DNA from: Capnocytophaga periodontitidis
GTDB taxonomy: Bacteria > Bacteroidota > Bacteroidia > Flavobacteriales > Flavobacteriaceae
Direction of reading: 5' to 3'
Length of the DNA: 64,000 bases
Assembly: GCF_016126015.1 (NCBI RefSeq)
Contig: NZ_JAEFDB010000001.1
Span: forward strand, 186,001-250,000
Positions 1 to 26,749 of this stretch are shown here, piece by piece (the stretch's first letter is position 1; each line of letters starts with the position of its first letter). Under the pieces are notes generated by a model. That model did not search any database. It saw only the letters and a list, made by a program, of their open reading frames with translations, and was not told where the DNA came from. The translations under genes and the position numbers were made by a program.

Positions 1-1844
1 GTATCAAAAACAACGATGCTAAAGAAAAACAAGTACAAAGTTCACTAAATACAGGTAACTATGTAGCTTTAGCACTTACTTTAGTAGCTTGCTATTTTCT
101 TATCAAATATATGTTACCCGAAACTATCCAAATGAGTTTCTTTGGCGAAGGAGTAAAAGAGATTGCAAGTATCAATGTATTCTATGCAACTATCGTAGGT
201 TTGGCAGTAGGCTTACTCATTTCTGCTATTACTGAACACTTTACCGCTTTGGGTAAAAAACCAGTATTGAATATCGTACGCAATTCATCTACTGGAGCTG
301 CTACTAACATTATTGCAGGTTTGGCTACAGGTATGAAATCTACCTTTGGTTCTGTATTGCTTTTTGCTGTAGCTATTTGGGGTTCTTACTCTTTAGCTGG
401 TTTCTATGGTGTAGCGATTGCCGCATCAGCAATGATGGCAACTACAGCTATGCAATTGGCTATTGATGCTTTTGGTCCTATTGCTGATAATGCTGGGGGT
501 GTAGCCGAAATGAGTGAATTGCCAAAAGAAGTGCGTCAACGTACTGATATTTTAGACTCAGTAGGTAATACTACTGCAGCTGTAGGTAAAGGATTTGCTA
601 TTGCTTCAGCAGCTCTTACCGCCTTAGCCTTGTTCGCTGCTTATGTGACCTTTACAGGCATTTCTGGTATCAATATTTTCAAAGCAAACGTATTAGCTGC
701 CTTGTTTATCGGAGGTATGATTCCAGTAATTTTCTCAGCCTTGGCAATGCAATCAGTAGGGAAAGCTGCTATGGATATGGTGAACGAAGTACGTCGCCAA
801 TTCCGTGAAATCCCTGGTATTATGGAAGGTAAAGGTACTCCAGAGTATGGTAGATGTGTAGATATTTCTACCAAAGCTGCTTTGCGCGAAATGATGTTAC
901 CTGGTGCTATTACAATCATCACTCCTATTATCATCGGTTTTGTGATGGGTGCTGAAGCTCTTGGCGCTTATATGGCTGGTGTAGCTGTATCAGGAGTTGT
1001 ATGGGCTATCTTCCAAAACAACGCTGGTGGTGCTTGGGACAATGCTAAGAAATCATTTGAAGCAGGTGTTGAAATCAACGGACAAATGACTTACAAAGGT
1101 TCTGATGCTCACAAAGCTGCCGTTACTGGTGATACTGTAGGTGACCCATTCAAAGATACTTCAGGACCTTCAATGAATATCCTTATCAAACTCACTTGCT
1201 TGGTAGGTTTGGTAATTGCTCCTATCTTGGGTGGACATACCGCTGATGCTTCAGGTACTCCTATAGAAGCTCAAATTCGTCAAGGTGAAGGTGAGGGAGT
1301 GATGCCTGTGGAAGAAGTAGTAGTTATTGAAGAAGGTAAGCTTAACGCCGATGGTGACTTCGAGTACAATGTAGGTGATTTATTCCAATTGAGCCTTTTT
1401 GACAATACAATGTTAGAAGTAGGAAAGAACTCATCTGAAGCACACCTCGTGAAATTGATAGAAGATAAAAACCTTACTACTCCAGAACAGTTCAAAGATA
1501 ACTGGATTACTTTGGATAGAACTTACTTCAAAACAGGTAGCGATGAACTTACTGAAGGTTCTGAACAACAATTAAAGAACATTGTAGCTATTTTGAAAGC
1601 TTATCCTAAAGCTGCTATTCGTTTAGGAGGTTATACTGATAATACGGGTAGTGTTGAAGGTAACAAAAAACTTTCAGAAAGACGTGCTAATTCAGTGCTA
1701 AACAAATTGGTAGCATTGGGTGCTAACAAAGCTCAATTGAGCGCTCAAGGTTATGGTGCAGAACACCCTCTTTGTCCTGCTAACGATACTCCTGAGTGCA
1801 AAGCTAAAAACAGACGTATCGACATACGTTTGACTGCTAAATAA
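1..1844 (+). CDS. hppA: Membrane-bound ion-pumping pyrophosphatase with C-terminal OmpA-like domain (5' end outside window)
   Basis: The reading frame is open from base 3, so the gene starts before the window. The protein couples pyrophosphate hydrolysis to Na+ or H+ export across the inner membrane. Family signatures visible are [16 protein letters not shown] (about 465-512), [11 protein letters not shown] (564-596), [15 protein letters not shown], and [15 protein letters not shown]. The codon at 576-578 is Ala where K+-independent enzymes carry Lys, which places it in the K+-dependent class that includes Na+ pumps. After the last membrane helices comes a linker of about 70 residues, then an OmpA-like domain (about 1500-1844) with [16 protein letters not shown] and NRRIDI. 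As known for the family, both termini face the periplasm, so this domain could bind peptidoglycan. A terminator follows. Identification is secure; ion specificity is inferred. Confidence 0.93.
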
Positions 1845-1929: not shown

Positions 1930-3972
1930 ATGAAATTACCTTTATTTTCAGCAGCTATATTGCTCACTGCTTTGGTAGCCTGCAACGACTCAAAGACTTC
2001 AAAAATGACAGAGAATACAGATAACAATCCGCTATTGGTAGAAAGCACTTTACCTTATAGTGCTCCCGACTTCTCAAAAATTAAAGATGAGCATTACCGT
2101 CCCGCCTTGCTCAAAGGAATGGCTTTGCAAAACGAACGTATTGCAGCTATTGCTAATAGCAACGAAGCGCCTACTTTTGAGAATACAATTATCGCTTTAG
2201 AAAAAAGTGGAGTAGAATTGGAACGTGCTTCAGCGGTATTCAATGCTTTAACTGAGGCAAATACTAATGATACCTTAAAAGTATTGCAAAAAGAATTATC
2301 ACCTAAGTTTGCCGAGCACGCCGATTGCATTCACCTGAACGAAAAACTCTTTGCGCGTATCAAAGCCTTATACGATAAACGTGATAGCTTGAAATTAGAT
2401 GCTGAATCGCTTAAATTGTTAGAAAATTACTACGAAGATTTTGTAGTAGCAGGTGCTAACCTATCGGCTACTGATAAAGAAACTCTTAAAAAGTACAATA
2501 GTGAGTTAGCTTCTTTAGAAACTGATTTTAACCAAACGCTTTTAGAAGGATCGTTGGCAGCCGCTCAAACTATCAATGGTCAGAAAGTAGCGATTGTGAA
2601 TACTACTCAGCAACCGCTCCTTAGTGAATTAGCCGACCGCAACGCTCGTAAACAATTGTTTGAAGCAAGCTGGAATCGCACCGATGGGGGAGCTCATAGT
2701 ACCAATGATATTTTAAAACGCATTGCTTTACTACGCGCTAAAAAAGCTGAACTCTTAGGCTTTAAAAACTATGCCGAATGGAGCTTGCAACGCACTATGG
2801 CTAAAACACCTGCTGCTATTGCTCAATTCTTTAAAGATTTAGTGCCCGCTTCAGTAGGTAAAGCCAAAGCAGAAGCTAAAGAAATACAAGCGCAAATCGC
2901 CAAAACGGGAGGTAATTTTACTTTAGAGCCTTACGATTGGAACTTCTATGCCGAACAAGTTCGCAAAGCTAAATACGACCTCGATGAGAACGAAATCAAA
3001 CCTTATTTCGAATTGAAAAATGCTCTTGAAAATGGTGTATTCTATGCAGCTACCAAACTTTATGGCATTACCTTCAAAGAACGCAAAGATATACCCGTAT
3101 ATCACCCCGATGTATTAGTGTATGAGCTTTTTGAAGAAGACGGTACGCCATTAGGACTTTTCTATGGCGATTTCTTTGCTCGTGAAAGCAAACGCGGTGG
3201 TGCGTGGATGAGCAACTTTGTAAACCAATCGAAGTTATTAGGCACTAAACCTGTTATCTACAATGTGTGCAATTATGTGAAACCTGCCGAAGGTAAACCT
3301 GCTTTACTTACTTACGATGAACTCACTACGCTCTTCCACGAGTTTGGTCACGCATTGCACGGTTTCTTTGCTAACCAACAGTATGCAAGTTTATCAGGAA
3401 CAGCAGTAGCACGCGATTTTGTGGAGTTTCCTTCGCAATTCAATGAGCATTGGGCTTTGTATCCTGAGGTACTTAAAAACTATGCAGTACATTACGAGAC
3501 CAAACAACCTATTCCACAAGCACTTATTGATAAGATAAAAAAAGCGAGTACCTTCAATGAGGGGTATGCTTTTACCGAAGTTTTGGCTGCTGCCAATTTA
3601 GACTTGCAATGGCATACTATCCCTTCGGATACTATCATCAATAATGTAAGTGATTTTGAGAAAAAAGCCCTTGAAAGAACAGGTTTATGGGTGAAAGAAG
3701 TACCTCCAAGATACCGTTCGTCTTACTTTGCACATATTTTTGGCGGAGGTTATGGAGCTGGTTATTACTCTTATCAATGGACAGAGATGCTTTGCCACGA
3801 TGCCTACCAATGGTTTGAAGAAAATGGAGGGCTTACTCGCGCTAATGGGCAACGTTTCAGAGATTTGATACTCTCCAAAGGCAATACAATGGATTACGAA
3901 AAAATGTATTTAGCCTTCAGAGGGAAAGCTCCTGCTATTGAGCCACTACTCAAAGCACGTGGGTTGAAATAA
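1930..3972 (+). CDS. dcp: M3-family metallopeptidase (peptidyl-dipeptidase Dcp-like), lipoprotein
   Basis: A 680-residue zinc peptidase of the thimet oligopeptidase/Dcp family, which removes dipeptides or cuts short peptides. The zinc motif HEFGH is at residues 470-474 and the third ligand Glu is in FVEFPSQ, about residue 499. The ATG at 1930 was chosen because an in-frame ATG at 1882 lies inside the upstream terminator. From 1930 the protein begins MKLPLFSAAILLTALVAC, a lipoprotein signal ending in a lipobox (L-V-A-C, Cys18). It is therefore probably anchored in the periplasm or outer membrane, as often seen in Bacteroidota M3 enzymes. It is followed 15 bp later by the thioesterase gene, probably in one transcript. 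The choice between Dcp and another M3 oligopeptidase is not certain. Confidence 0.88.
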   Translation: MKLPLFSAAILLTALVACNDSKTSKMTENTDNNPLLVESTLPYSAPDFSKIKDEHYRPALLKGMALQNERIAAIANSNEAPTFENTIIALEKSGVELERASAVFNALTEANTNDTLKVLQKELSPKFAEHADCIHLNEKLFARIKALYDKRDSLKLDAESLKLLENYYEDFVVAGANLSATDKETLKKYNSELASLETDFNQTLLEGSLAAAQTINGQKVAIVNTTQQPLLSELADRNARKQLFEASWNRTDGGAHSTNDILKRIALLRAKKAELLGFKNYAEWSLQRTMAKTPAAIAQFFKDLVPASVGKAKAEAKEIQAQIAKTGGNFTLEPYDWNFYAEQVRKAKYDLDENEIKPYFELKNALENGVFYAATKLYGITFKERKDIPVYHPDVLVYELFEEDGTPLGLFYGDFFARESKRGGAWMSNFVNQSKLLGTKPVIYNVCNYVKPAEGKPALLTYDELTTLFHEFGHALHGFFANQQYASLSGTAVARDFVEFPSQFNEHWALYPEVLKNYAVHYETKQPIPQALIDKIKKASTFNEGYAFTEVLAAANLDLQWHTIPSDTIINNVSDFEKKALERTGLWVKEVPPRYRSSYFAHIFGGGYGAGYYSYQWTEMLCHDAYQWFEENGGLTRANGQRFRDLILSKGNTMDYEKMYLAFRGKAPAIEPLLKARGLK

Positions 3973-3987
3973 CAAAAAGGATATGCT

Positions 3988-4413
3988 ATGTTCAACAAAG
4001 AAACTTTATTACAGAAGTGGCAGGCGCTACCTCCAAACAACTTGATGCGCGATTGGCAAATGGAAATTTCCGAAGTAACCGAAGATAGTGTTACTATAAC
4101 GATGCCTGTTACCGAGAAAGTTACTCAGGTAGATGGGGTGTTACACGGAGGGGCTACTTTAGCTTTAGCTGAAACAGCAGGTAGCATAGGGGCGTATTTA
4201 CTTTACCGCAATGATGATGAACAGATTCGAGGTATTGAACTCAGTGCTAATCACTTGAGAGCGGGTAGAGTAGGGGATACCCTTTACGCCAAAGCTGTAT
4301 GTGTGAATGCAGGACGTACGCTCCAACTTTGGGAAATAAAAGTAACAAATCAGGAGGAAAAACTCATTTCTTATTGCAAATTCACCACGATTAGAATTAA
4401 CCCTAACACTTAG
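3988..4413 (+). CDS. Hotdog-fold acyl-CoA thioesterase (PaaI/MenI-like)
   Basis: A 141-residue single-domain hotdog protein. The stretch VDGVLHGGATLALAETAGS (about residues 48-66) is the family active-site helix: His53-Gly-Gly and the Glu at 62 correspond to the catalytic region of MenI/EntH-type thioesterases. The likely reaction is hydrolysis of an aromatic or naphthoyl-CoA thioester. DHNA-CoA in menaquinone synthesis is one candidate, but no other men gene is visible in the window. It lies 15 bp after the M3 peptidase and 4 bp before the YciO-like gene, so the three are probably co-transcribed. The substrate is unknown. Confidence 0.82.
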   Translation: MFNKETLLQKWQALPPNNLMRDWQMEISEVTEDSVTITMPVTEKVTQVDGVLHGGATLALAETAGSIGAYLLYRNDDEQIRGIELSANHLRAGRVGDTLYAKAVCVNAGRTLQLWEIKVTNQEEKLISYCKFTTIRINPNT

Positions 4414-4417
4414 AACA

Positions 4418-5041
4418 ATGGCTGATTTTATTAAATTATACAACGAAAATCCCAACGAAAAGGAGATTGCTAAGGTAGTGGAAGTGCTTCGCCACGGCGG
4501 ACTCATTATCTATCCTACTGATACCGTTTACGGTTTGGGCTGTGATATTACAAATACCAAAGCCCTTGAGAAAATTGCTCGCATCAAAGGGGTAAAACTC
4601 GAAAAAGCAAACTTTTCATTTGTGTGCTGCGATTTAAAAAATCTATCTGACTATGTGAAACAGATAGATACGAGCACTTTCAAACTGTTGAAGCGCGCTT
4701 TACCAGGTCCTTATACCTTTATAATGCAAGGAAATAACAATCTTCCTAAGGATTTTAAAAAGAAGAAAACCGTAGGGATACGTGTCCCCGATAACACTAT
4801 TGCGCGTACTATTGTAGAAAAGTTAGGTAACCCTATAGTCTCTACCTCTATCTACGACGACGACGATGTGATTGAGTACACCACCGATCCAGAGCTTATC
4901 TTCGAGAAATGGCAAAACCGCGTGGATATCGTTATTGATGGTGGTTATGGCGACAATGTAGCCTCCACCGTCATCGACCTCTCAGGTGACACTCCTGTTG
5001 TGCTGCGGGAAGGCAAAGGAGATGTTGATATCATTTACTAA
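4418..5041 (+). CDS. L-threonylcarbamoyladenylate synthase family protein (Sua5/YciO/YrdC)
   Basis: A 207-residue protein with the YrdC fold. GGLIIYPTDTVYGLGCDI near residues 28-45 is the nucleotide/threonine-binding start of the domain; KKKTVGIRVPDN and NPIVSTSI follow. Members of the TsaC/Sua5 branch make threonylcarbamoyl-AMP for the t6A37 modification of tRNA. The length and the absence of a Sua5 C-terminal domain point to the TsaC or YciO type. YciO proteins are less well understood, so the exact role is open. It is the last gene of the plus-strand group and is followed by a strong terminator. Confidence 0.82.
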   Translation: MADFIKLYNENPNEKEIAKVVEVLRHGGLIIYPTDTVYGLGCDITNTKALEKIARIKGVKLEKANFSFVCCDLKNLSDYVKQIDTSTFKLLKRALPGPYTFIMQGNNNLPKDFKKKKTVGIRVPDNTIARTIVEKLGNPIVSTSIYDDDDVIEYTTDPELIFEKWQNRVDIVIDGGYGDNVASTVIDLSGDTPVVLREGKGDVDIIY

Positions 5042-5043
5042 AC

Positions 5044-5082
5044 AAAAAATCCAGTATAGTAACTCACTATACTGGATTTTTT
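5044..5082. terminator. Bidirectional terminator
   Basis: AAAAAATCCAGTATAGT (5044-5060), loop AACTC, then ACTATACTGGATTTTTT (5066-5082). The arms are perfect complements with T-runs on both strands. It serves the plus-strand YciO-like gene and the convergent minus-strand gene. Confidence 0.9.
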
Positions 5083-5099
5083 GTTGTTAAAGCTCTTGT

Positions 5100-6482
5100 T
5101 TACATGTCATCAGGTATTTCTAAGTAATCTATCTCTAAAGGTATTACTTCTATAATATTCAAATTAAGTGTTTCACTTCTTCCATCAGCAAAAGTAACAA
5201 TAGCAGTTTTATCTTTGAAGAGTTCTTTCTGATAATATTGGTGCAATTTTTCTAAATATTTCTCGGGTATGATGGTTTTATCTGAAACTGTAAATGTGTC
5301 TTTCTTAAGAGAAATATGAAGTGATATGGGGTTATCTTTAAATTCCCAACCTGTAAAATATTCTAAAAGCTCATCTTCAAAAAAAGCAGTTTTTAATGAC
5401 GAATTGTCAATAAGCACTGAAGGAGACAAAAAAGAAGCCTTGTAGTGGTAATGTTTTCTATTATTAGAAGGTGTACCGCAATTCAAGGGTGTAATTTTCT
5501 TTTTAAATTCTATCTTTCTCCAAAATTTCCAAGTACCTATATCCTCTATTATGGCTTTTATTCTTCCTTTACCTTTTACACGTTTTATTTTTTGAGCACC
5601 TGTGAGATGGTTTATATACAAAATTTTATCTAATACTAAGTAATTACTTTCTTTCTGAGGATAATAGAACCATCGTATACTCTTTTCAAGGCTCCCTTCA
5701 GTAGTATAAAAATACTGTAAAAAAGGGATATATCCCTTTTGAAGAGGGTCAAGCCCTTTGCAATAGAACTTTTCAGAAAAAAGAAGGTCTTTTTTAAATA
5801 CGTATTCTCGTATCGAATCCACCTCTCCAAAAGATTCTCTTTTATAAAGTGAATCAGGGTAACGATAGTAAAAAAGCCTATAAAGCTCTTTTCTATCTTG
5901 GTTTCTCACAACAGAATCGTATTTATGAATGACCTCATTCTTCAATTCTTTATGAACAGAAATATTATTTTTGTAGTAAGAATGTATTACTTGATAATTA
6001 CCTTGTGTAAAAACAGTTTCTTCTTTGAGTCCACTCTTTCTACTGATGTAACTACTCTTTTCTTTACCATTCTTATCCAAAAACTCTTCTTTATAAAACA
6101 AATCGCTAAAAGTTTTCTTTTCAATCACTGAATCTTTGTCTACAGTAAGTGTATAAGAAGCAATCTTTCCATAAGAGTTATAAGTAGCCTCATACCCTTT
6201 TTATATCTGCAAAAAATAGGCTGAGAGCAGTTTACCATTATCATCATACGAACATTCTCTTTCAGGAGTAGTAATTTTTAAATAGCCTTCGGGAGTAGAT
6301 AAAAGTTGGTAAGTATATAATAATTGTCCTTGATGATAAAGCGCAATATTTTTTATGGAAAGCCTTTTATAAGTAGGTATGCTTCCCGAAAGTATATCGC
6401 GCCATTGAGCAACAGTAAGCGCTTCTTGTGCGTTTATAGAAAACACCCAAAAGTAAAGAATCAATAGACTATATTTCATCAC
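5100..6482 (-). pseudogene. Secreted protein gene interrupted by one in-frame TAA
   Basis: The 5' part (6482 to 6201) encodes a protein starting MMKYSLLILYFWVFSINAQ, a clear signal peptide, and ending ...AYFLQI at TAA (6203-6201). Reading on in the same frame gives KGYEATYNSYGKIASYTL and then runs without another stop into a 342-residue open frame that ends at 5100. That second frame could only start at a GTG (6128-6126) in mid-sequence. The simplest reading is one gene of about 460 codons with a single nonsense change or a sequencing error. No family was recognised. It is the last gene of the purH-side minus-strand group, 18 bp after the MFS gene. Confidence 0.75.
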
Positions 6483-6500
6483 TGTCTAAATTTCTAATTA

Positions 6501-7718
6501 CTAACTCCTAACTTTTTTTGATAAATTAGGTAAGAAATAAGCAATAAGTCCCATTAGGGGGAGGAATGAACAGAGTTTATAAACAAAATCGATATCGGTT
6601 ATGTCTATCAATTTGCCTAATACAGCTGAGGCTAAGCCGCCCATACCAAAGGCAAAACCGTAGAAAAATCCTGAAATCATCCCTATTTTCTGGGGTAATA
6701 ATTCTTGTGAATAGACTAAGATAGAAGCAAAAGCTGATGAGATGATGAAGCCTATCAGTACGATGAGTATTGCCGTAGTGGTAGCATCGGCGTAAGGCAA
6801 CCAAAGCGCAAAGGGGGCAGCCCCTAAGATTGAAAACCAAATGATAAATTTTCTTCCTACTTTATCACCCAAAAATCCTCCAATAAGTGAACCTGCTGCT
6901 ACTGCTCCTAAAAAGTAAAATAGGTATACCTGTGCCTCAGCATTGCTAAATCCGAACTTTTTAATGGTGTAAAACTGAAAGTAATTGTTGATAGCTGCTG
7001 TATAGAAGTTTTTGGAGAATACCAGCAACATCAATATAATCATAGAGTTGCGTATTTGCGCACGGGTGAGATTGGGCAAAACTACTGGTTTTTTAACCTT
7101 CTTTTTGAGTAGTTTAAGCAAGATGCTGCGCCATTTGCCTATGAGAAGCAAAATGAACATCGCAAAAATAGAAAAGCTCGCAAACCATATCAAATTACCT
7201 TGATGACTCTCTTCTACAACTTTCCCATCGATTACTTTTTTACTCAATAACAACAATATCACCAACAGAGGGGCTAAGGCTGTGCCAAAATTCCCACCTA
7301 ATTGAAAGATAGCTTGAGCAAATGAGCGTCTACCACCTGAGGCTAAAAAGGCTACTCGAGATGCTTCGGGGTGAAATACCGATGAACCTACCCCTATAAA
7401 CACTACCGAGCACAGTATAGCTGCATAACTACTCGCCAACGATAAACTCACAATTCCTATAGTGGTAAACGCCATTCCTAATACTTGTGAGTAAGGTTTG
7501 GGGTGTTTATCGGTGTAGTTGCCTACTAAGGGTTGTAATATAGAGGCTGAAAGTTGGTAACAGAGTGTAATTACCCCTACTTGCGTCATAGTGAGAGCGT
7601 ATTTGCTTTGTAGGGTGGGGTAAATAGACGGAATGACCCCTTGTATGAGGTCATTGAGTCCGTGTGCTAAAGCTATCAGTAGTAAAATGCGATATTGTGG
7701 TTTGTTTTCTTGATACAT
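6501..7718 (-). CDS. MFS transporter, fosmidomycin-resistance (Fsr)-like
   Basis: A 405-residue protein with about 12 hydrophobic segments. The opening (LIALAHGLNDLIQGVIPSIY), the motif SSVFHPEASR and GGRRSFAQAIFQLGGNFGTA are typical of the Fsr branch of the major facilitator superfamily, which exports drugs by proton antiport. The ATG at 7718 is preferred to one 39 bp further upstream, because the latter would overlap the mlaE-like gene. With this start there is 1 bp between that gene's stop and this ATG, suggesting translational coupling. The substrate is unknown. Confidence 0.85.
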   Translation of the reverse strand: MYQENKPQYRILLLIALAHGLNDLIQGVIPSIYPTLQSKYALTMTQVGVITLCYQLSASILQPLVGNYTDKHPKPYSQVLGMAFTTIGIVSLSLASSYAAILCSVVFIGVGSSVFHPEASRVAFLASGGRRSFAQAIFQLGGNFGTALAPLLVILLLLSKKVIDGKVVEESHQGNLIWFASFSIFAMFILLLIGKWRSILLKLLKKKVKKPVVLPNLTRAQIRNSMIILMLLVFSKNFYTAAINNYFQFYTIKKFGFSNAEAQVYLFYFLGAVAAGSLIGGFLGDKVGRKFIIWFSILGAAPFALWLPYADATTTAILIVLIGFIISSAFASILVYSQELLPQKIGMISGFFYGFAFGMGGLASAVLGKLIDITDIDFVYKLCSFLPLMGLIAYFLPNLSKKVRS

Positions 7719-7719
7719 T

Positions 7720-8457
7720 TTAAGCGTAGAACAATTGCGTAAGCACTGAGTTAGCAAGGATAATCACTATACTCGTCCATACAAATGAAACCGTACTGGC
7801 TTTTCCAACATCTAAAGCGCCTCCTTTCATATAATAACCGTGATAGGACGGAATGGTAGCCAAGAAAAATGCAAAAACAACCGTTTTAGTGAAGGCGTAC
7901 ACCATACTGTAAGGTTTGAAGTCGTACTGCACTCCTTGTACAAATTCGGCAGAGGTGGTATAGCCACTCATTACCGCAGAAGCCCAACCTCCTAATACCC
8001 CTAAGTACATACCTAAGGCGATGAGGAACGGCATTAACATTAGGGCTACTATTTTGGGGAATATCAAATAATTCACTGAGTTTACCCCCATAATATCAAG
8101 GGCATCAATCTGTTCGGTTACGCGCATTGTACCTATGCTGGAAGTGATAAACGAACCAATTTTCCCTGCTAAAATTACTGCTGTAAAGGTAGGTGCAAAC
8201 TCCAATACAATAGATTGTCGAGTAGCGAAACCTATAAGGTATTTGGGGATAAAAGGGTTGTCGATATTCAAAGCGGTTTGTACAGCTACTACCCCTCCTA
8301 CGAAGAAAGAGATAAAAGCTACGATACCTATAGACCCAAAGATGAGGTCATCTATCTCACGCAATATGAGGTCTTTAGTAATCGACCAGCGGGTGCGTTT
8401 GCGAAAGATATCATAAAGCATTATAAAATAGCCTCCTACGGCTGCAATGTGTTTCAT
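7720..8457 (-). CDS. mlaE: MlaE/YrbE-family ABC transporter permease
   Basis: A 245-residue inner-membrane permease of the MlaE family, which with an MlaF ATPase and an MCE-domain protein moves phospholipid between the membranes. Typical sequence: VGGVVAVQTALNI, EFAPTFTAVILAGKIGS and RVTEQIDALDIMGVN. It lies 22 bp downstream of purH on the same strand. The usual mlaF and mlaD partners do not follow; an MFS gene does. The partners must be encoded elsewhere if the system works. Confidence 0.9.
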   Translation of the reverse strand: MKHIAAVGGYFIMLYDIFRKRTRWSITKDLILREIDDLIFGSIGIVAFISFFVGGVVAVQTALNIDNPFIPKYLIGFATRQSIVLEFAPTFTAVILAGKIGSFITSSIGTMRVTEQIDALDIMGVNSVNYLIFPKIVALMLMPFLIALGMYLGVLGGWASAVMSGYTTSAEFVQGVQYDFKPYSMVYAFTKTVVFAFFLATIPSYHGYYMKGGALDVGKASTVSFVWTSIVIILANSVLTQLFYA

Positions 8458-19994: not shown

Positions 19995-20795
19995 ATGATA
20001 AAAAATAAACTGCCCGTAAGATACACGGGACAGCATTTTACTATAGATAAAGTGCTGATAGATGATGCAATTAAAATTGCGAAAATAAATGAATCCGACA
20101 CTGTTATAGATATTGGTGCCGGAAAAGGATTTTTGACTGTTCATTTAGTTCGTCAATGCACAAATATAATTGCAATAGAGAATGATAAATCGCTATTGTC
20201 CATTCTAAAAAACAAGTTTTCTAACAACACGAATGTCAAAATTATTGATTGTGATTTTAGATGTTACACCATACCAAAAAGAAATTTTAAAGTTGTGTCT
20301 AATATCCCTTTCAGAATAACTTCTGAAATTTTAAAATCCTTGATGTTTGATAGTGTTGAGCATTTTATGGGTGGTTCATTGATAATGCAACTTGAACCTG
20401 CCCAAAAGTTATTTTCAAAAAAAGTTTTCAATCCATATATTGTGTTTTATCATACTTTTTTTGATTTAAAACTTATGTATGAAATATCTCATGAGAGTTT
20501 TTTGCCACCACCAAAAGTCAAGTCAGCACTTTTAAAGATTGAAAGAAAAAAAATGTCAATAAGTTATGAATTGAAAAGAAAATATCTGAATTTTCTCACT
20601 TTCTTGTTGCAAAAACCCGATTTGCCAGCCAGAACTGTATTAAAGACAATATTCAGAAAAAGTCAAGTCAGAGTTATTGCTGATAAATATGGAATAAATC
20701 TTAATTGTCAAATTGTTAGTTTGGCTGCAAAACAATGGGAATGTTGTTTTTTGGAAATGTTGGAGAGAGTTCCTGAAAAAAACCATCCCTCTTAA
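19995..20795 (+). CDS. erm: 23S rRNA (adenine-N6) methyltransferase, Erm(F)-like; macrolide-lincosamide-streptogramin B resistance
   Basis: A 266-residue methyltransferase that dimethylates A2058 of 23S rRNA and blocks macrolide, lincosamide and streptogramin B binding. QHFTIDKVLIDDAI (13-26), the SAM motif DIGAGKGFLTVHL (39-51), IAIEND (59-64) and the substrate motif SNIPF (102-106) are all present. LEPAQKLFSKK and FYHTFFDLKL follow the Erm(F) pattern closely, but many positions differ from Erm(F) as I recall it. It may therefore be a separate Erm class. Its position directly inside an IS4351-like copy is the same as that of ermF in Tn4351. It is convergent with the nitroreductase gene and ends before a shared terminator. 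Confidence 0.93.
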   Translation: MIKNKLPVRYTGQHFTIDKVLIDDAIKIAKINESDTVIDIGAGKGFLTVHLVRQCTNIIAIENDKSLLSILKNKFSNNTNVKIIDCDFRCYTIPKRNFKVVSNIPFRITSEILKSLMFDSVEHFMGGSLIMQLEPAQKLFSKKVFNPYIVFYHTFFDLKLMYEISHESFLPPPKVKSALLKIERKKMSISYELKRKYLNFLTFLLQKPDLPARTVLKTIFRKSQVRVIADKYGINLNCQIVSLAAKQWECCFLEMLERVPEKNHPS

Positions 20796-21745: not shown

Positions 21746-22899
21746 CTTGAGTTCAAGTTATAAATGCAACTTTTAAAGAAAAGGATTAATAGCTGCATAA
21801 GTAATATTTTTTTCAGAGAGAAAAGAGAGACAATTCCCTCTGTTCTCTGCTGAATGGATAAATGTTACTATCTTTGTTTTTATTGTCCGTCCAAAGAAAT
21901 AAAAGTTGTAGATGAGTAAACATATAACCGAAAAGCAAAGGTATGCAATTTCTAAGATGTTGCAAGTTCCGATGAGTAAAAAAGATATAGCTGAAGCTAT
22001 TGGAGTTGATAGGAGTAATATTTATAGAGAAATAAAACGCAATTGCGATAGTCGTAGTGGAAAATACAACCCTGATCTTGCCCAAAGAAAGGCAGATAAA
22101 CGTAAGGTTGAAAAGAAGCGAAAGGAGGTATTTACACAAGCTATGAAGAAGCGTGTAAAAAAGCTTCTACGAAAGGACTTGAGCCCAGAGCAGATAGTGG
22201 GCAGAAGCCAAGTAGAAAATATAGCTATGGTATCTCACGAAACTATATATTGTTGGATATGGCAAGATAAACGACAAGGTGGGGATCTTCATAAATCTCT
22301 TAGAAGGCAAGGACGCAAATATTCAAAGCGTGGTTCTAAAAACGCAGGTAGAGGATTTATTCCGAATAGAGTGGAGATTGATCAGCGACCTTCAATTGTA
22401 GAGCAAAAAGAAAGATTTGGTGATTTAGAGATAGATACAATTATTGGAAAGAATCACAAAGGTGCTATTCTAACCATTAATGATAGAGCAACAAGCAGAG
22501 TATGGATACGTAAGCTATCAGGGAAAGAAGCCATCCCTGTAGCAAAGATTACAGTATGGGCATTACGAAAAGTAAAAAACTTAATACACACAATAACGGC
22601 TGATAATGGAAAAGAATTTGCAAAACACGAGGATATAGCACAAAAATTAGATATTAATTTCTATTTTTGTAAGCCATACCACTCTTGGGAGCGTGGTGCC
22701 AATGAAAATACTAACGGTCTTATCAGGCAGTATATCCCAAAGGGTACGGACTTTAGTGAAGTAACCAACAAGCGTATTAAATGGATTGAAAACAATCTAA
22801 ATAATAGACCTCGTAAAAGACTTGGATACCTCACACCAAACGAAAAATTTAAACAAATTATTAATATGAATTCCGTTGCATTTGGAACTTGAATTCAGC
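21746..22899 (+). mobile_element. Right IS30-family element (IS4351-like)
   Basis: The second 1154-bp copy, in the same orientation as the left one and matching it from CTTGAGTTCAAG to CTTGAATTCAGC. It is followed directly by the CAA target duplication and the 3' part of the interrupted DUF4139 gene. I saw no difference from the left copy in the stretches I compared, which suggests recent arrival or gene conversion. Confidence 0.93.
21912..22892 (+). CDS. IS30-family transposase (IS4351-like), right copy
   Basis: A complete 326-residue transposase with the same protein sequence as the left copy, including the N-terminal helix-turn-helix and the Asp, Asp, Glu triad (IDTIIG, TADNG, ERGANEN). 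The intact gene means either copy could mobilise the composite. Confidence 0.95.
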   Translation: MSKHITEKQRYAISKMLQVPMSKKDIAEAIGVDRSNIYREIKRNCDSRSGKYNPDLAQRKADKRKVEKKRKEVFTQAMKKRVKKLLRKDLSPEQIVGRSQVENIAMVSHETIYCWIWQDKRQGGDLHKSLRRQGRKYSKRGSKNAGRGFIPNRVEIDQRPSIVEQKERFGDLEIDTIIGKNHKGAILTINDRATSRVWIRKLSGKEAIPVAKITVWALRKVKNLIHTITADNGKEFAKHEDIAQKLDINFYFCKPYHSWERGANENTNGLIRQYIPKGTDFSEVTNKRIKWIENNLNNRPRKRLGYLTPNEKFKQIINMNSVAFGT

Positions 22900-23216: not shown

Positions 23217-24125
23217 CTAAAAAAGTCCTTCTACTGACCAGTAGCGTTCTCCTGTGTCGTAATTTATGGTGAGGATACGCGCTTTGGGGTCTTTTTTGAG
23301 TACTTTAGCAACGGCAGCTAAAGCAGCACCAGTAGAGATACCTCCTAAAATACCTTCTTCTTTAGCCAATCGGCGAGCGTAATCAAAGGCTTCTTCTTTA
23401 GAGATAGGGATAACTTCATCTACTACAGCAGGGTTATAGTTATCGGGTATGAAGCCAGTGCCCAATCCTTGTAAGGCGTGAGGACCTGGAGCACCACCAC
23501 TCAACACCGCCGATTGATCGGGTTCTACAGCTACAGTTTTGAGGTTAGGGAAGTGTTGTTTAAGCACTTTTGATACCCCAGAGATATGTCCGCCAGTACC
23601 TACTCCCGTTACGAAATAGTCAAAACCTTCGGGGAAAGATTTTAGTATTTCCTGAGCAGTTGTTTTTTCGTGTACATCAGGATTAGCAGGGTTTTTAAAC
23701 TGTTGAGGTACCCAATAGTTAGGTTTGCCTTCAGCTATTTCCAGAGCTTTAGCGACCGCTCCCCCCGTACCTTTTTCTTTAGGCGTGAGTACTACTTCGG
23801 CGCCATAAGCGGCTACCAACTTGCGGCGTTCAATACTCATTGATTCAGGCATTACCACGATGAGTTTATAGCCCTTTACAGCCGCTACTAATGCCAAGCC
23901 CACTCCCGTGTTGCCAGAGGTAGGCTCTACAATCACACTGTCTTTTTTAAGGATGCCTTTAGCTTCGGCATCTTCAACCATAGCGAGCGCAATACGGTCT
24001 TTGATACTACCGCCAGGGTTCAAGCGCTCTAATTTGATGAATACGTTGGCATCATTGCCAAACAATCTGTTGATTTTTACCTCGGGAGTATGCCCGATGA
24101 CTTCTAAAACATTTTTGTACGCCAT
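23217..24125 (-). CDS. cysK: Cysteine synthase A (O-acetylserine sulfhydrylase)
   Basis: A 302-residue PLP enzyme that makes L-cysteine from O-acetylserine and sulfide. The PLP lysine is Lys42 in [11 protein letters not shown]; the phosphate/substrate loop TSGNTGVG is at about 69-76; GTGGHISGV binds PLP phosphate. The length is normal for CysK. It lies 34 bp downstream of the serine acetyltransferase gene, so the two enzymes of the pathway form one operon. The operon is probably under the attenuator described at 25003-25219. Confidence 0.95.
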
Positions 24126-24159: not shown

Positions 24160-25002
24160 TCAGATAACAAAATTAATCGGTTCTTCATATACTTCGTTGT
24201 CCTTTACAATAATCTGACTTTTGTGGAAAACCTTAGTAAAAGGTTCGATGCTATTGGTGAGCCATACATTCCCGCCGATGATACTATCGTGTCCTATTAC
24301 GGTTTCACCACCTAAAATAGTAGCACCAGAGTATATCACCACATTATCCTGAATGGTAGGGTGGCGCTTGGTATGAGCCTTATCTACTGATACCGATAGA
24401 GCCCCCAAGGTAACTCCTTGATATATCTTTACATAGTTACCTATTACTGTAGTTTCTCCAATTACAATACCTGTACCGTGGTCAATCATAAAAGGGACTC
24501 CAATGCTTGCCCCTGGGTGAATGTCGATACCCGTTTTGCTATGAGCGTATTCAGTGAGCATACGCGGCAAGAGAGGTACTTTGCGCAACCACAATTCGTG
24601 AGCAATGCGATATACCATAATAGCAAAGAAACCAGGGTAGGTGATTTGTACTTCTCTGATAGAAGTTGCTGCAGGGTCGCTATCAATAAAATACTGAGCA
24701 TCTTCTCGCAATTGCTGATAGATATTAGGCAAAATACAATCGTAATAATCGGTTGTTTTTGCTTTTTGAGATTCGTTTAGCAGAAAATCGTCTACAATAT
24801 TGATAAAATCCCAACGCAATTCCTCATAGCGGGCTTCTATACTCACTTTTGATAAGCAAGTGCGTTCATCAATAAGAAATAAGAACTGAAAAAGGTCGTT
24901 TACAAAGCGTGTAATACGCTGTTTGCTTACGTGGTGTTTGATGTTTTTACTTTCGTGATAGAGTTCATTAATAAGACTCTCAGTACAATTTATTTTTGTC
25001 AT
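24160..25002 (-). CDS. cysE: Serine O-acetyltransferase
   Basis: A 280-residue protein of the long SAT type common in Bacteroidota and cyanobacteria. An N-terminal helical region precedes a left-handed beta-helix of hexapeptide repeats. GIDIHPGASIG, MIDHGTGIVIGETTVIG (catalytic His/Asp region) and GVTLGALSV are typical. It acetylates serine to O-acetylserine, the substrate of CysK encoded next. The ATG at 25002 follows a terminator-like hairpin whose U-run ends 6 nt upstream, and a leader ORF with two adjacent Cys codons precedes that hairpin. Confidence 0.94.
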   Translation of the reverse strand: MTKINCTESLINELYHESKNIKHHVSKQRITRFVNDLFQFLFLIDERTCLSKVSIEARYEELRWDFINIVDDFLLNESQKAKTTDYYDCILPNIYQQLREDAQYFIDSDPAATSIREVQITYPGFFAIMVYRIAHELWLRKVPLLPRMLTEYAHSKTGIDIHPGASIGVPFMIDHGTGIVIGETTVIGNYVKIYQGVTLGALSVSVDKAHTKRHPTIQDNVVIYSGATILGGETVIGHDSIIGGNVWLTNSIEPFTKVFHKSQIIVKDNEVYEEPINFVI

Positions 25003-25016
25003 CGTTATAAAAAAAT

Positions 25017-25047
25017 ACCCCCACTACCTTTATAAAGCGGTGGGGGT
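25017..25047 (-). terminator. Intrinsic terminator hairpin of the cysE leader
   Basis: On the minus strand ACCCCCAC pairs with GTGGGGGT; the stem may extend with mismatches through CGCTTTA/AAAGGTA. It is followed by ATTTTTTT. It stands between a good promoter and cysE, so it must be bypassed for expression. Confidence 0.82.
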
Positions 25048-25086
25048 TGTTATTTCATTTGTTAAAATATAGTAACTGACATATCT

Positions 25087-25140
25087 TTAAGAAATAACGA
25101 GCCTTGCACTGCTCAAATTGAGTGTGCAACACATCGTCAT
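25087..25140 (-). CDS. Leader peptide MTMCCTLNLSSARLVIS (candidate attenuator peptide)
   Basis: A 17-codon ORF: ATG ACG ATG TGT TGC ... TCT TAA. It has two adjacent Cys codons early and two adjacent Ser codons later, upstream of genes that convert serine to cysteine. It starts about 43 nt after the predicted transcription start. Its last codons form the 5' arm of the candidate antiterminator. It is too short to be called by normal gene finding. No homologue could be checked. Confidence 0.65.
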   Translation of the reverse strand: MTMCCTLNLSSARLVIS

Positions 25141-25188
25141 TATGTTTAAAGTGTACAATGTCATATAATATTGTTCTATTTGATGGGG

Positions 25189-25219
25189 CAAAGGTAAGAA
25201 TATTTTTCTAACTACCAAA
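25189..25219 (-). promoter_or_regulatory. Consensus promoter for the cysE-cysK leader
   Basis: Minus strand: TTTG (25219-25216), a 19-bp spacer, TACCTTTG (25196-25189). This is a full match to the Bacteroidota primary sigma consensus TTTG-N19-TAnnTTTG. Transcription should begin near 25184, about 180 nt before the cysE ATG. Confidence 0.85.
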
Positions 25220-25246
25220 TAAAAAGTGAAAAATTATTTCATTTTT

Positions 25247-26749
25247 TTATTTTTCAGCAGAAAGAATTGCGTCCAAACGGCATAGTGTTTCTTCTTTACC
25301 TATAACCTCTATAATATCAAATATGTGAGGACCTTTGAGTTCACCTACTAATGCCAAGCGCAATGGAGGCATTACTTGACCAAAGCCTAAGCCCTTTGTT
25401 TCCATATATTGCTTTACCGCCTCTTCTAAGGCAATTGAAGTAAAATTAGCAGTATTTTGGAGTACTTCAGCTACTTCTTTCACAATGGTAGGAGTTTGTT
25501 CTTTCCATTGTTTTTTAATTGCCTTTTCGTCGTATTGGGTAGGTGCTTCAAAGAAGAATTTGCTAAGTTCCCAGAAATCACTTACAAAGGAAGCGCGCTC
25601 TTTGATGAGTCCAACTACTTTTTCTACTGTAGCAATTGGGGCAGTTACACCTCTTTCGGTAAGGTCTTTTTGGAAAAGGGTAGCCAATTCATCATTGGGT
25701 TTCATTTGTAAATATTGGTGGTTGAACCATTTGATTTTCTCAGGGTCGAAACGAGCCCCAGCCTTGTGTACTTTTTCTAAATCAAATAGTTGAATGAGTT
25801 GTTCCATTGAAAAAATCTCCTCATCATTCCCTGGATTCCACCCTAAAAGTGCTAAAAAGTTGATAAGAGCTTCAGGAAAATAACCTTCTCCACTAAATCC
25901 TTTTAGCGTTTCGCTATTCTCTGTCCAATCCATTGGGAAGACAGGAAAACCGAGTTTGATACCATCGCGTTTGCTGAGTTTGCCATTCCCTACAGGTTTG
26001 AGGATAAGAGGCAAATGAGCAAAAGCAGGAGCTTGCCAACCAAAAGCGCGGTAGAGTATTAGGTGCAAAGCCATAGAAGGCAACCATTCTTCACCGCGTA
26101 TTACGTGAGTAATTTCCATTAGGTGGTCGTCTACGATGTTTGCTAAGTGGTAAGTAGGCATTCCGTCACTTTTGAAGAGCACTTTGTCGTCTAAGGTACT
26201 CGTATCGATAGTTACTTCCCCACGAATCATATCGTTCATTTTCAACTGTTCGTTGTGGGGCATTTTGAAGCGAATTACGTACTCATCACCTCGTTGCAGG
26301 CGTTGTTGTACCTCTTCAGCACTCAGCGATAGAGAGTTTTGCAAAGTATCGCGTGTTGCCCAATTGTATATAAAGGTTTCTCCTTTGGCTTCAGCCTCTT
26401 TGCGCGCAATATCAAGTGCCTCAGCAGTATCAAAAGCGTAATACGCCCAACCATTCTCAATAAGAGCATCGGCATATTGTTTGTAGAGCGGCTTGCGTTC
26501 ACTTTGGCGGTAGGGAGCGTGTTTGCCCTCTTTGCCTACTCCCTCGTTGTAAGTAAGCCCTAACCAGTTCAGTGAGTTGATGATGTACTGCTCAGCGCCT
26601 GGTACATAGCGATTTTGGTCGGTATCTTCAATGCGAAGTAAGAAGTCGCCACCGTGTTTTTTGGCGAATAAATAATTGAATAAGGCGGTACGTACGCCTC
26701 CGATATGCAATGCTCCTGTAGGACTTGGAGCAAATCTAACTCTAACCAT
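25247..26749 (-). CDS. gltX: Glutamate--tRNA ligase
   Basis: A 500-residue class I aminoacyl-tRNA synthetase that charges tRNA-Glu. The HIGH-type motif is in PSPTGALHIGG (9-19) and the KMSKS-type motif is GKLSKRDG (about 260). RIEDTDQNRYV and IRGEEWLPS are typical GluRS sequence. The start MVRVRFAPSP is the normal one for this family. It lies upstream of cysE on the same strand. The cysE promoter begins 28 bp after the gltX stop, so cysE-cysK can be transcribed independently. Confidence 0.96.
   Translation of the reverse strand: MVRVRFAPSPTGALHIGGVRTALFNYLFAKKHGGDFLLRIEDTDQNRYVPGAEQYIINSLNWLGLTYNEGVGKEGKHAPYRQSERKPLYKQYADALIENGWAYYAFDTAEALDIARKEAEAKGETFIYNWATRDTLQNSLSLSAEEVQQRLQRGDEYVIRFKMPHNEQLKMNDMIRGEVTIDTSTLDDKVLFKSDGMPTYHLANIVDDHLMEITHVIRGEEWLPSMALHLILYRAFGWQAPAFAHLPLILKPVGNGKLSKRDGIKLGFPVFPMDWTENSETLKGFSGEGYFPEALINFLALLGWNPGNDEEIFSMEQLIQLFDLEKVHKAGARFDPEKIKWFNHQYLQMKPNDELATLFQKDLTERGVTAPIATVEKVVGLIKERASFVSDFWELSKFFFEAPTQYDEKAIKKQWKEQTPTIVKEVAEVLQNTANFTSIALEEAVKQYMETKGLGFGQVMPPLRLALVGELKGPHIFDIIEVIGKEETLCRLDAILSAEK

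Follow-up and report, generated by a model that had tools for sequence, protein, structure and literature searches.

Ribosome-mediated transcription attenuators of the trp type are known from trp, his, leu, and ilv. In Bacillus, a T-box (tRNA-Cys) sits between gltX and cysE. Polycysteine leader ORFs of actinobacteria and mycobacteria were reportedly studied by Canestrari 2020. Three described systems involve cysteine codons in leaders. The uORFC-8-2 motif of the Rhodobacterales, as the available text of its report describes it, is a CysCys uORF before cysS with predicted attenuation (PMC8632094). Actinobacterial cys operons, according to the accessible part of another study, have polycysteine leader ORFs and no conserved terminator hairpins (PMC1262725). 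Mycobacterial polycysteine ORFs are leaderless and, in the excerpt available, are cited as acting on translation (PMC13236596).

The Bacteroidota naturally lack Shine-Dalgarno (SD) sequences, as stated in the available portion of one study (PMC6847099). The transcriptome of Flavobacterium psychrophilum gave strong clues that leader peptides attenuate operons for amino-acid biosynthesis, with cysteine not named among the cases in the main text as available (PMC9723704), and leader-peptide-like sORFs are described in the accessible text on Bacteroides thetaiotaomicron (PMC7366714). The main text of PMC2965389 contains no occurrence of Bacteroidetes, Flavobacteri, or cysE, and the available part of PMC4833913 makes no mention of cysteine. 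On the F. psychrophilum evidence, as far as that text goes, the mechanism is therefore not new to Bacteroidota (PMC9723704). Thus, the first-pass annotation, which knew of no described example in the phylum, was too broad as to attenuation in general and stands for cysteine: we found no cysteine attenuator in Bacteroidota among the papers listed by our literature searches. Lopatovskaya 2010, said to be a comparative study of attenuation, may contain relevant predictions. The mechanism is a textbook one; what is new, as far as the literature searched goes, is the cysteine case in this phylum.

The window, a stretch of 64,000 nucleotides from Capnocytophaga periodontitidis, contains on its minus strand a 244-nt gap between gltX (25247-26749) and cysE (24160-25002). 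Inside this gap are a promoter, a leader ORF, and an intrinsic terminator. As in trp-type attenuators, a leader ORF with regulatory codons is combined with a candidate 1:2 protector, a 2:3 antiterminator, and a 3:4 terminator followed by a T-run; unlike those, this element has Cys codons, precedes cysE-cysK, belongs to Bacteroidota, and shows no SD sequence before the leader ORF. Like uORFC-8-2, by description in the text available, it places its tandem Cys codons within the first stem and ends in an intrinsic terminator, but that motif precedes a cysteinyl-tRNA synthetase gene in Alphaproteobacteria. With the actinobacterial leaders, as far as their report was available, it shares a short ORF with runs of Cys codons ahead of cysteine genes; those lack conserved terminator hairpins, whereas a terminator is present here.

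Gene identities were evaluated using NCBIfam. The models bore out the assignments made from the sequence alone, namely gltX, a cysE-type serine acetyltransferase, and cysK, with the cysE model scoring below its own cutoff. Specifically, cysE encodes a 280-residue serine O-acetyltransferase (TIGR01172, E 1.3e-48, under the curated cutoff), and the next gene, cysK (23217-24125, minus strand), encodes cysteine synthase A (TIGR01139, above cutoff). The two genes are probably one operon. In all 15 Capnocytophaga genomes where cysE is matched over nearly its full length, cysK follows it. The window also encodes, about 2.4 kb away from cysK, a protein (19995-20795) that we take to resemble an Erm-type rRNA adenine methyltransferase, and at 21912-22892 there is presumably an IS30-type transposase, judged by resemblance.

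The promoter (25189-25219, minus strand), read from the sequence, consists of TTTG at 25219-25216, a 19-nt spacer, and TACCTTTG at 25196-25189. We take this TTTG/TACCTTTG arrangement to be a putative promoter of the Bacteroidota type with -33 and -7 elements. A -7 element of the form TAnnTT[T/A]GC occurs upstream in all nine leader-bearing genomes (alignment A1). Downstream lies a leader ORF of 25 codons plus stop (25087-25164, minus strand; MTLYTLNIMTMCCTLNLSSARLVIS*, stop at 25089-25087), with an equivalent ORF in 9/9 genomes, the window included. The first-pass annotation was right that an ORF with Cys-Cys is present; its start at 25140, giving 17 residues, is an in-frame internal ATG. The start is most likely at 25164 because the ORFs of relatives begin at the equivalent position. 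No SD sequence was seen ahead of the ORF.

The putative regulatory codons are the tandem TGT TGC at 25126-25131 (minus strand). Cys-Cys is found in eight of the nine Capnocytophaga cysE leaders; the ninth (G008) has Trp-Cys in its place, yet contains four Cys in total. At least two Cys are encoded in each of the nine ORFs, all of which stand before cysE-cysK.

Four strands could form the switch. The first, strand 1, covers the Cys codons (25129-25120) and continues upstream across the Met codons. Its pairing with strand 2 would give the putative protector hairpin 1:2 (25104-25129, minus strand; TTGCACACTC/GAGCAGTGCAA), the 5' arm of which lies over the Cys codons. Strand 2 (25107-25114, minus strand; GAGCAGTG) is also the 5' arm of an outer antiterminator helix with 25042-25035. 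The latter stretch, strand 3 (25035-25042, minus strand), is common to the outer helix and to the 5' arm of the terminator, the 3' arm of which is strand 4. Since strand 2 thus pairs with a part of the terminator, the antiterminator and the terminator are mutually exclusive. Enclosed by the outer helix is an inner helix, read from the sequence, formed by GTTATTTC (25091-25098, minus strand), over the last ORF codons, and GAAATAAC (25049-25056, minus strand). The intrinsic terminator 3:4 (25009-25046, minus strand) comprises a stem at 25046-25018 and a T-run at 25015-25009 that ends 6 nt before the cysE ATG (25002); the hairpin fragment has a folding energy of -19.2 kcal/mol. The features described in the first-pass annotation (promoter, Cys-Cys, in-ORF hairpin, GTTATTTC/GAAATAAC, terminator, and T-run) are all in the sequence at correct coordinates. 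As its antiterminator, it had named the inner helix (25098-25091/25056-25049), which holds, together with a two-mismatch extension, which is only minor; the main pairing, 25114-25107/25042-25035, had been missed.

The strand 2/strand 3 helix of the window strain contains one mismatch (25110/25039). Position 25039 is C in the window and T in the other eight genomes, so one pair is lost in the outer helix and one in the terminator. The switch of the window strain may therefore be weaker.

Spacing within the leaders was also compared. Strand 2 starts 12 nt past the second Cys codon in eight of the nine genomes and 11 nt past it in G017, a position predicted to be just beyond the edge of a ribosome stalled at Cys. 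G017 keeps the RNA letters of strand 2 although their codon phase is shifted, an indication that the RNA itself is under selection.

Taken from sequence and comparison, the ORF, its Cys codons, the alternative helices, the terminator, the conserved spacing, and the neighbouring genes indicate that the element is very probably a classical ribosome-mediated transcription attenuator of cysE-cysK with charged Cys-tRNA as its signal; from them we infer that the ORF is translated, where it starts, that transcription terminates, and that cysteine governs the outcome. When Cys-tRNA is short, the ribosome would stall at the tandem Cys codons and cover strand 1. Strand 2 would be left free just past its leading edge and pair with strand 3, which would block the terminator and allow cysE to be transcribed. 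When Cys-tRNA is sufficient, the ribosome would proceed to the stop codon and so occupy the final codons together with the inner antiterminator arm. Without a ribosome, hairpin 1:2 would sequester strand 2. In either of the latter two states, strand 3 would pair with strand 4, and transcription would stop 6 nt before cysE.

The predicted states were evaluated by folding nine leaders: those of the window, G018, G010, G009, G013, G008, G001, G014, and G017. The ribosome was represented by a mask of approximately 15 nt on each side and, for the Cys stall, of everything upstream as well, these sizes being assumed. With the mask at the second Cys codon, the predicted probability of 2:3 was 0.85-1.00 in all nine. 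In the free, full-length leader, the model gave 3:4 a probability of 0.79 for the window, and values of 0.98-1.00 were obtained for the eight remaining genomes. In the free truncated leader, hairpin 1:2 was predicted at a probability of at least 0.79 in six of nine, the exceptions being G009 and G017, in which 2:3 is expected to prevail (0.99 and 0.74), and G008, which is predicted to fold otherwise. With the mask at the stop codon, the modelled probability of 2:3 was 0.01 in the window, 0.76 in G018, 0.06 in G010, 0.82 in G009, 0.15 in G013, 0.45 in G008, 0.37 in G001, 0.02 in G014, and 0.77 in G017; this state was computed at equilibrium, by a model without a ribosome in the loop and without kinetics. 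Thus, the free and ribosome-at-stop states appear to agree only partly with the folding model. The inner helix was predicted in all nine genomes, its pairing kept while the sequence changes in the more distant relatives.

Statistics were used to evaluate the structure. The stalled-state segment of the window was more stable than its dinucleotide shuffles (z = -2.8; 6 of 500 shuffles as low). Across the nine genomes, z ranged from -1.7 (G008) to -4.5, eight of them at or below -2.8. Duplexes between the ORF and the terminator arm had p values of 0.001-0.028 in 9/9 genomes. For the outer 2:3 helix, 97.2% of the cells over the nine sequences were paired, versus at most 68.1% in slid versions; five of its eight pairs are invariant and one shows a compensatory A-U to G-C change. 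Its covariation did not exceed that of shuffles (78/500 reached its score), the helix being so strongly conserved. For hairpins 1:2 and 3:4 together, pairing extended to 91.8% of cells, slid versions not exceeding 44.0%, and none of 500 shuffles reached their covariation score, in a test weakened by the kinship of the sequences. On a longer alignment, RNAalifold returned hairpins 1:2 and 3:4 among other pairs; its covariation term was unfavourable (+0.5). The inner helix, which the alignment leaves out of register, was predicted genome by genome.

We searched 20 Capnocytophaga genomes, 15 of which have a near full-length cysE match; G019 had weak partial matches only. A covariance model, R1, was built from nine leaders (alignment A2) and matched in 9 of the 20 genomes at E ≤ 1.6e-11, these nine being also its training set; no further genome had a match at cysE. 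The element is therefore present in nine of the 15 genomes with a near full-length cysE match, and these are exactly those in which cysE is at least 69% identical to that of the window. The six genomes with a cysE of 49-54% identity had neither an R1 match at cysE nor a Cys-rich ORF within 350 nt upstream. The closest named relative, C. sputigena NCTC 11653 (L009), has a cysE of 99% identity. Within Capnocytophaga, then, comparison of the gap found nine genomes that conserve the Cys-rich ORF along with the stems and terminator, and the leader-peptide attenuator proposed in the first-pass annotation was right in kind.

The same comparison bears on whether the hairpin is a constitutive gltX terminator and the short ORF incidental. 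The hairpin does separate gltX from cysE in the window, as it does in five further leader-bearing genomes, gltX being upstream in six of the nine. In G010, G014, and G017, however, gltX is not within approximately 1.5 kb upstream and the hairpin is kept; the leader is thus tied to cysE-cysK and is not merely a gltX terminator. Moreover, a conserved promoter-like element precedes the hairpin, the T-run stops close to cysE (4-26 nt before the start of the cysE match across the leaders), and in 9/9 genomes the ORF combines Cys codons with complementarity to the terminator arm in one of its strands. We give the constitutive-terminator reading almost no credence.

The nearness of the hairpin end to the cysE ATG could also suggest control of cysE translation instead of termination, and mycobacterial cysteine genes are cited, in the excerpt available, as translationally attenuated via polycysteine ORFs (PMC13236596). 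Against this stand the strong hairpin with its T-run, the mark of intrinsic termination, found between the ORF and cysE in 9/9 genomes, and the complementarity of ORF and terminator arm, which is a requirement of transcription attenuation. We consider translational control very unlikely and retain transcription attenuation by a stalled ribosome.

A T-box or another known riboswitch was considered and rejected, as no Rfam family matched the element at its gathering score. Specifically, no T-box match was found in 24950-25300 up to E = 5, and Rfam matches up to that value were all sub-threshold, the best being SSRC34_2 (26.7 bits versus a cutoff of 48). The element resembles the Bacillus T-box in its position between gltX and cysE, its presumed uncharged Cys-tRNA signal, and its predicted antitermination output; a T-box, in contrast, binds the tRNA directly and has no ORF.

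The codons directly before Cys-Cys are Met-Thr-Met (25132-25140, minus strand). Two to four Met occur among the four codons preceding the Cys pair in all nine cysE leaders. Met accounts for 24 of the 195 non-start residues in the eight distinct cysE leaders, versus 3.5 expected, and for 12 of 77 in four leaders of a second target described below, versus 1.4 expected; p values for this enrichment are nominal, the sequences being related. The Met run is conserved, and three candidate explanations stand: Met sensing, strand 1 pairing, and spare start codons.

The second target emerged from a weak R1 match in G012 (E 0.028). The match is a further Cys leader, MFLIQRNNMMMCCPMPYPCKTS, which has a terminator and stands ahead of the gene for a TonB-dependent receptor; that gene in turn comes after a gamma-glutamyltranspeptidase gene (ggt). 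The receptor is found at E ≤ 1e-80 in four of the 20 genomes, the window's own included, each time with a Cys leader and terminator. The leaders are MFLIQRNNMMMCCPMPYPCKTS in G012, MSIIRRNNMMCCSMAYP in G007, MTFTSKNMMMLCSMVSP in the window's own genome, and MEFILPAYQPTIMCCRFQPSGRNVV in G017. All four are predicted to fold into alternative helices like those of the cysE leader. The gene upstream of the receptor in G007 resembles ggt, judged from its N-terminus, and in G017 the receptor directly follows cysE-cysK. In that genome (L214, 1-9500), a Cys leader with terminator thus occurs twice over, once for cysE-cysK and once for the adjoining receptor, forming putative tandem attenuators. In the window's own genome (contig 7, L211), the row comprises ggt (6015-7721), the receptor (2799-5741), and metE (406-2706), the B12-independent methionine synthase gene; beside these neighbours, the receptor may import a sulfur source.

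A pattern search used ATGTGYTGY or ATGATGTGYTGY, and 60 loci were examined, namely 30 of 93 hits in the window's own genome and 30 of 31 in the genus. Among these, short ORFs that both stood clear of long overlapping frames and had a terminator behind them were limited to six cysE leaders and two receptor leaders. MMMCC matches in G002 and G010 (L129, L131), lying inside or against coding frames, were set aside as chance.

The Met codons in both sets of leaders might reflect general sensing of sulfur amino acids, in which stalling at the Met run or at Cys would give read-through and so coordinate cysteine synthesis with a receptor for sulfur compounds. The enrichment of Met in both sets fits this reading, as does the receptor leader of the window's own genome, with its single Cys and Met-Met-Met run. 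Nevertheless, the 300 nt before metE had no Met/Cys ORF with a terminator in 18/18 genomes, and neither the G017 receptor leader nor most leaders outside the genus have a Met run before Cys. In addition, the Met codons fall within strand 1 and are largely base-paired to the strand-2 region (51 of their 72 nucleotides), so that RNA pairing may account for them. We regard general sulfur amino acid sensing as doubtful. Control of metE by the Met run was rejected on the result for those 18 upstream regions of 300 nt, and as the metE after the receptor in the window's own genome has its own promoter-like element; upstream of metE in L220 there is an ORF, MMCMCWVAHYLNR, without a terminator.

Leaders like that of the window were also sought beyond the genus. 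In the window's family (f1), R1 gave nothing convincing in 118 genomes from outside Capnocytophaga (best E 7.4e-4, with stricter filters), and no short ORF listed for the nine f1 matches at E ≤ 0.05 contained tandem Cys. The best R1 match outside Capnocytophaga in 80 sources was L014 (E 0.012). A strict DNA pattern, which divergent leaders would escape, matched 2 of 397 family genomes, both Capnocytophaga. Two weak R1 matches in other genomes of the family, L138 (1471-1545, plus strand; MTIIYTNNKAMKMRYQKVQGLLFV) and L139 (approximately 1560-1646, minus strand; MKIKQVNKRVCYTSRKRSLGYCVYLLFQ), look like leader peptides with terminators and without tandem Cys; these are possible attenuators for other amino acids.

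Using cysE, we searched 346 genomes of the class, of which 70, the window's own included, matched at E ≤ 1e-15. Upstream regions of cysE were then scanned at 147 loci: 75 other places and 72 of 80 named loci, some of the latter outside Bacteroidota, with possible overlap between named and other genomes. The named loci left out were four from Capnocytophaga and L061, L076, L078, and L084. The latter four, scanned separately, had no Cys-rich ORF with a terminator, L061 and L078 offering only 12 and 208 nt upstream. A short ORF with tandem residues followed by a terminator was found for Cys at 11 of the 147 loci, for Trp at two, Met at three, and His at two. A relaxed scan gave 15 loci for Cys, 15 for Tyr, four for Trp, six for Met, two for His, and eight for Gln; as Tyr scores as often as Cys, the relaxed scan proves nothing by itself.

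Eight of the 15 relaxed-scan Cys loci were judged by folding; L256, L264, L267, L021, L065, L069, L070, and L086 of the tandem scan were not counted as support. In six of the eight, an ORF strand is predicted to pair with the terminator arm, with stalled-state z values of -2.4 to -5.1: L239 (f1), L240 and L247 (f21), L254 (f35), L289 (f15), and L067 (a Bacteroidales MAG). L241 and L242 showed no such pairing and were set aside as weak candidates. In L067, gltX, the leader MIKNIKNISLNCICCCCNRPGEVCSYIIV, cysE, and cysK follow one another in the window's order. A SAM-II riboswitch (Rfam RF01726) was observed at 950-1029 (minus strand) of L239, in the window's family, approximately 0.5 kb from the cysE that bears a Cys leader. 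In the f21 genus, cysE is found at E ≤ 1e-50 in eight of 36 genomes, three of which have a Cys leader (G509, G686, and G755); G765 has a terminator and a one-Cys ORF, and nothing clear was seen in the other four. The G755 leader is predicted to fold with ORF-terminator pairing. The leaders outside the genus are not visibly alignable with that of the window, and a common origin with it appears only possible.

These loci raise the possibility, to which we lean less than to its opposite, of Bacteroidota-wide sulfur-amino-acid attenuators. In such a set, Cys leader peptides (Met-Cys in Capnocytophaga) unrelated in sequence would control cysE-cysK and the ggt-adjacent TonB-dependent receptor via ribosome stalling without SD sequences. 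If this holds, the receptor would take up a source of cysteine, glutathione for instance. The common leader type also suggests a sulfur-nutrient role for the receptor.

If the reading of the cysE leader is correct, Capnocytophaga would provide a clear case of attenuation in response to cysteine from a phylum whose translation begins without Shine-Dalgarno sites. A stalled ribosome can attenuate only where transcription and translation are tightly coupled, and the element would therefore be a ready probe for coupling in Bacteroidota. Finally, the order gltX-leader-cysE parallels the gltX-T-box-cysE of Bacillus; possibly, two RNA devices have come to serve one problem in one place.
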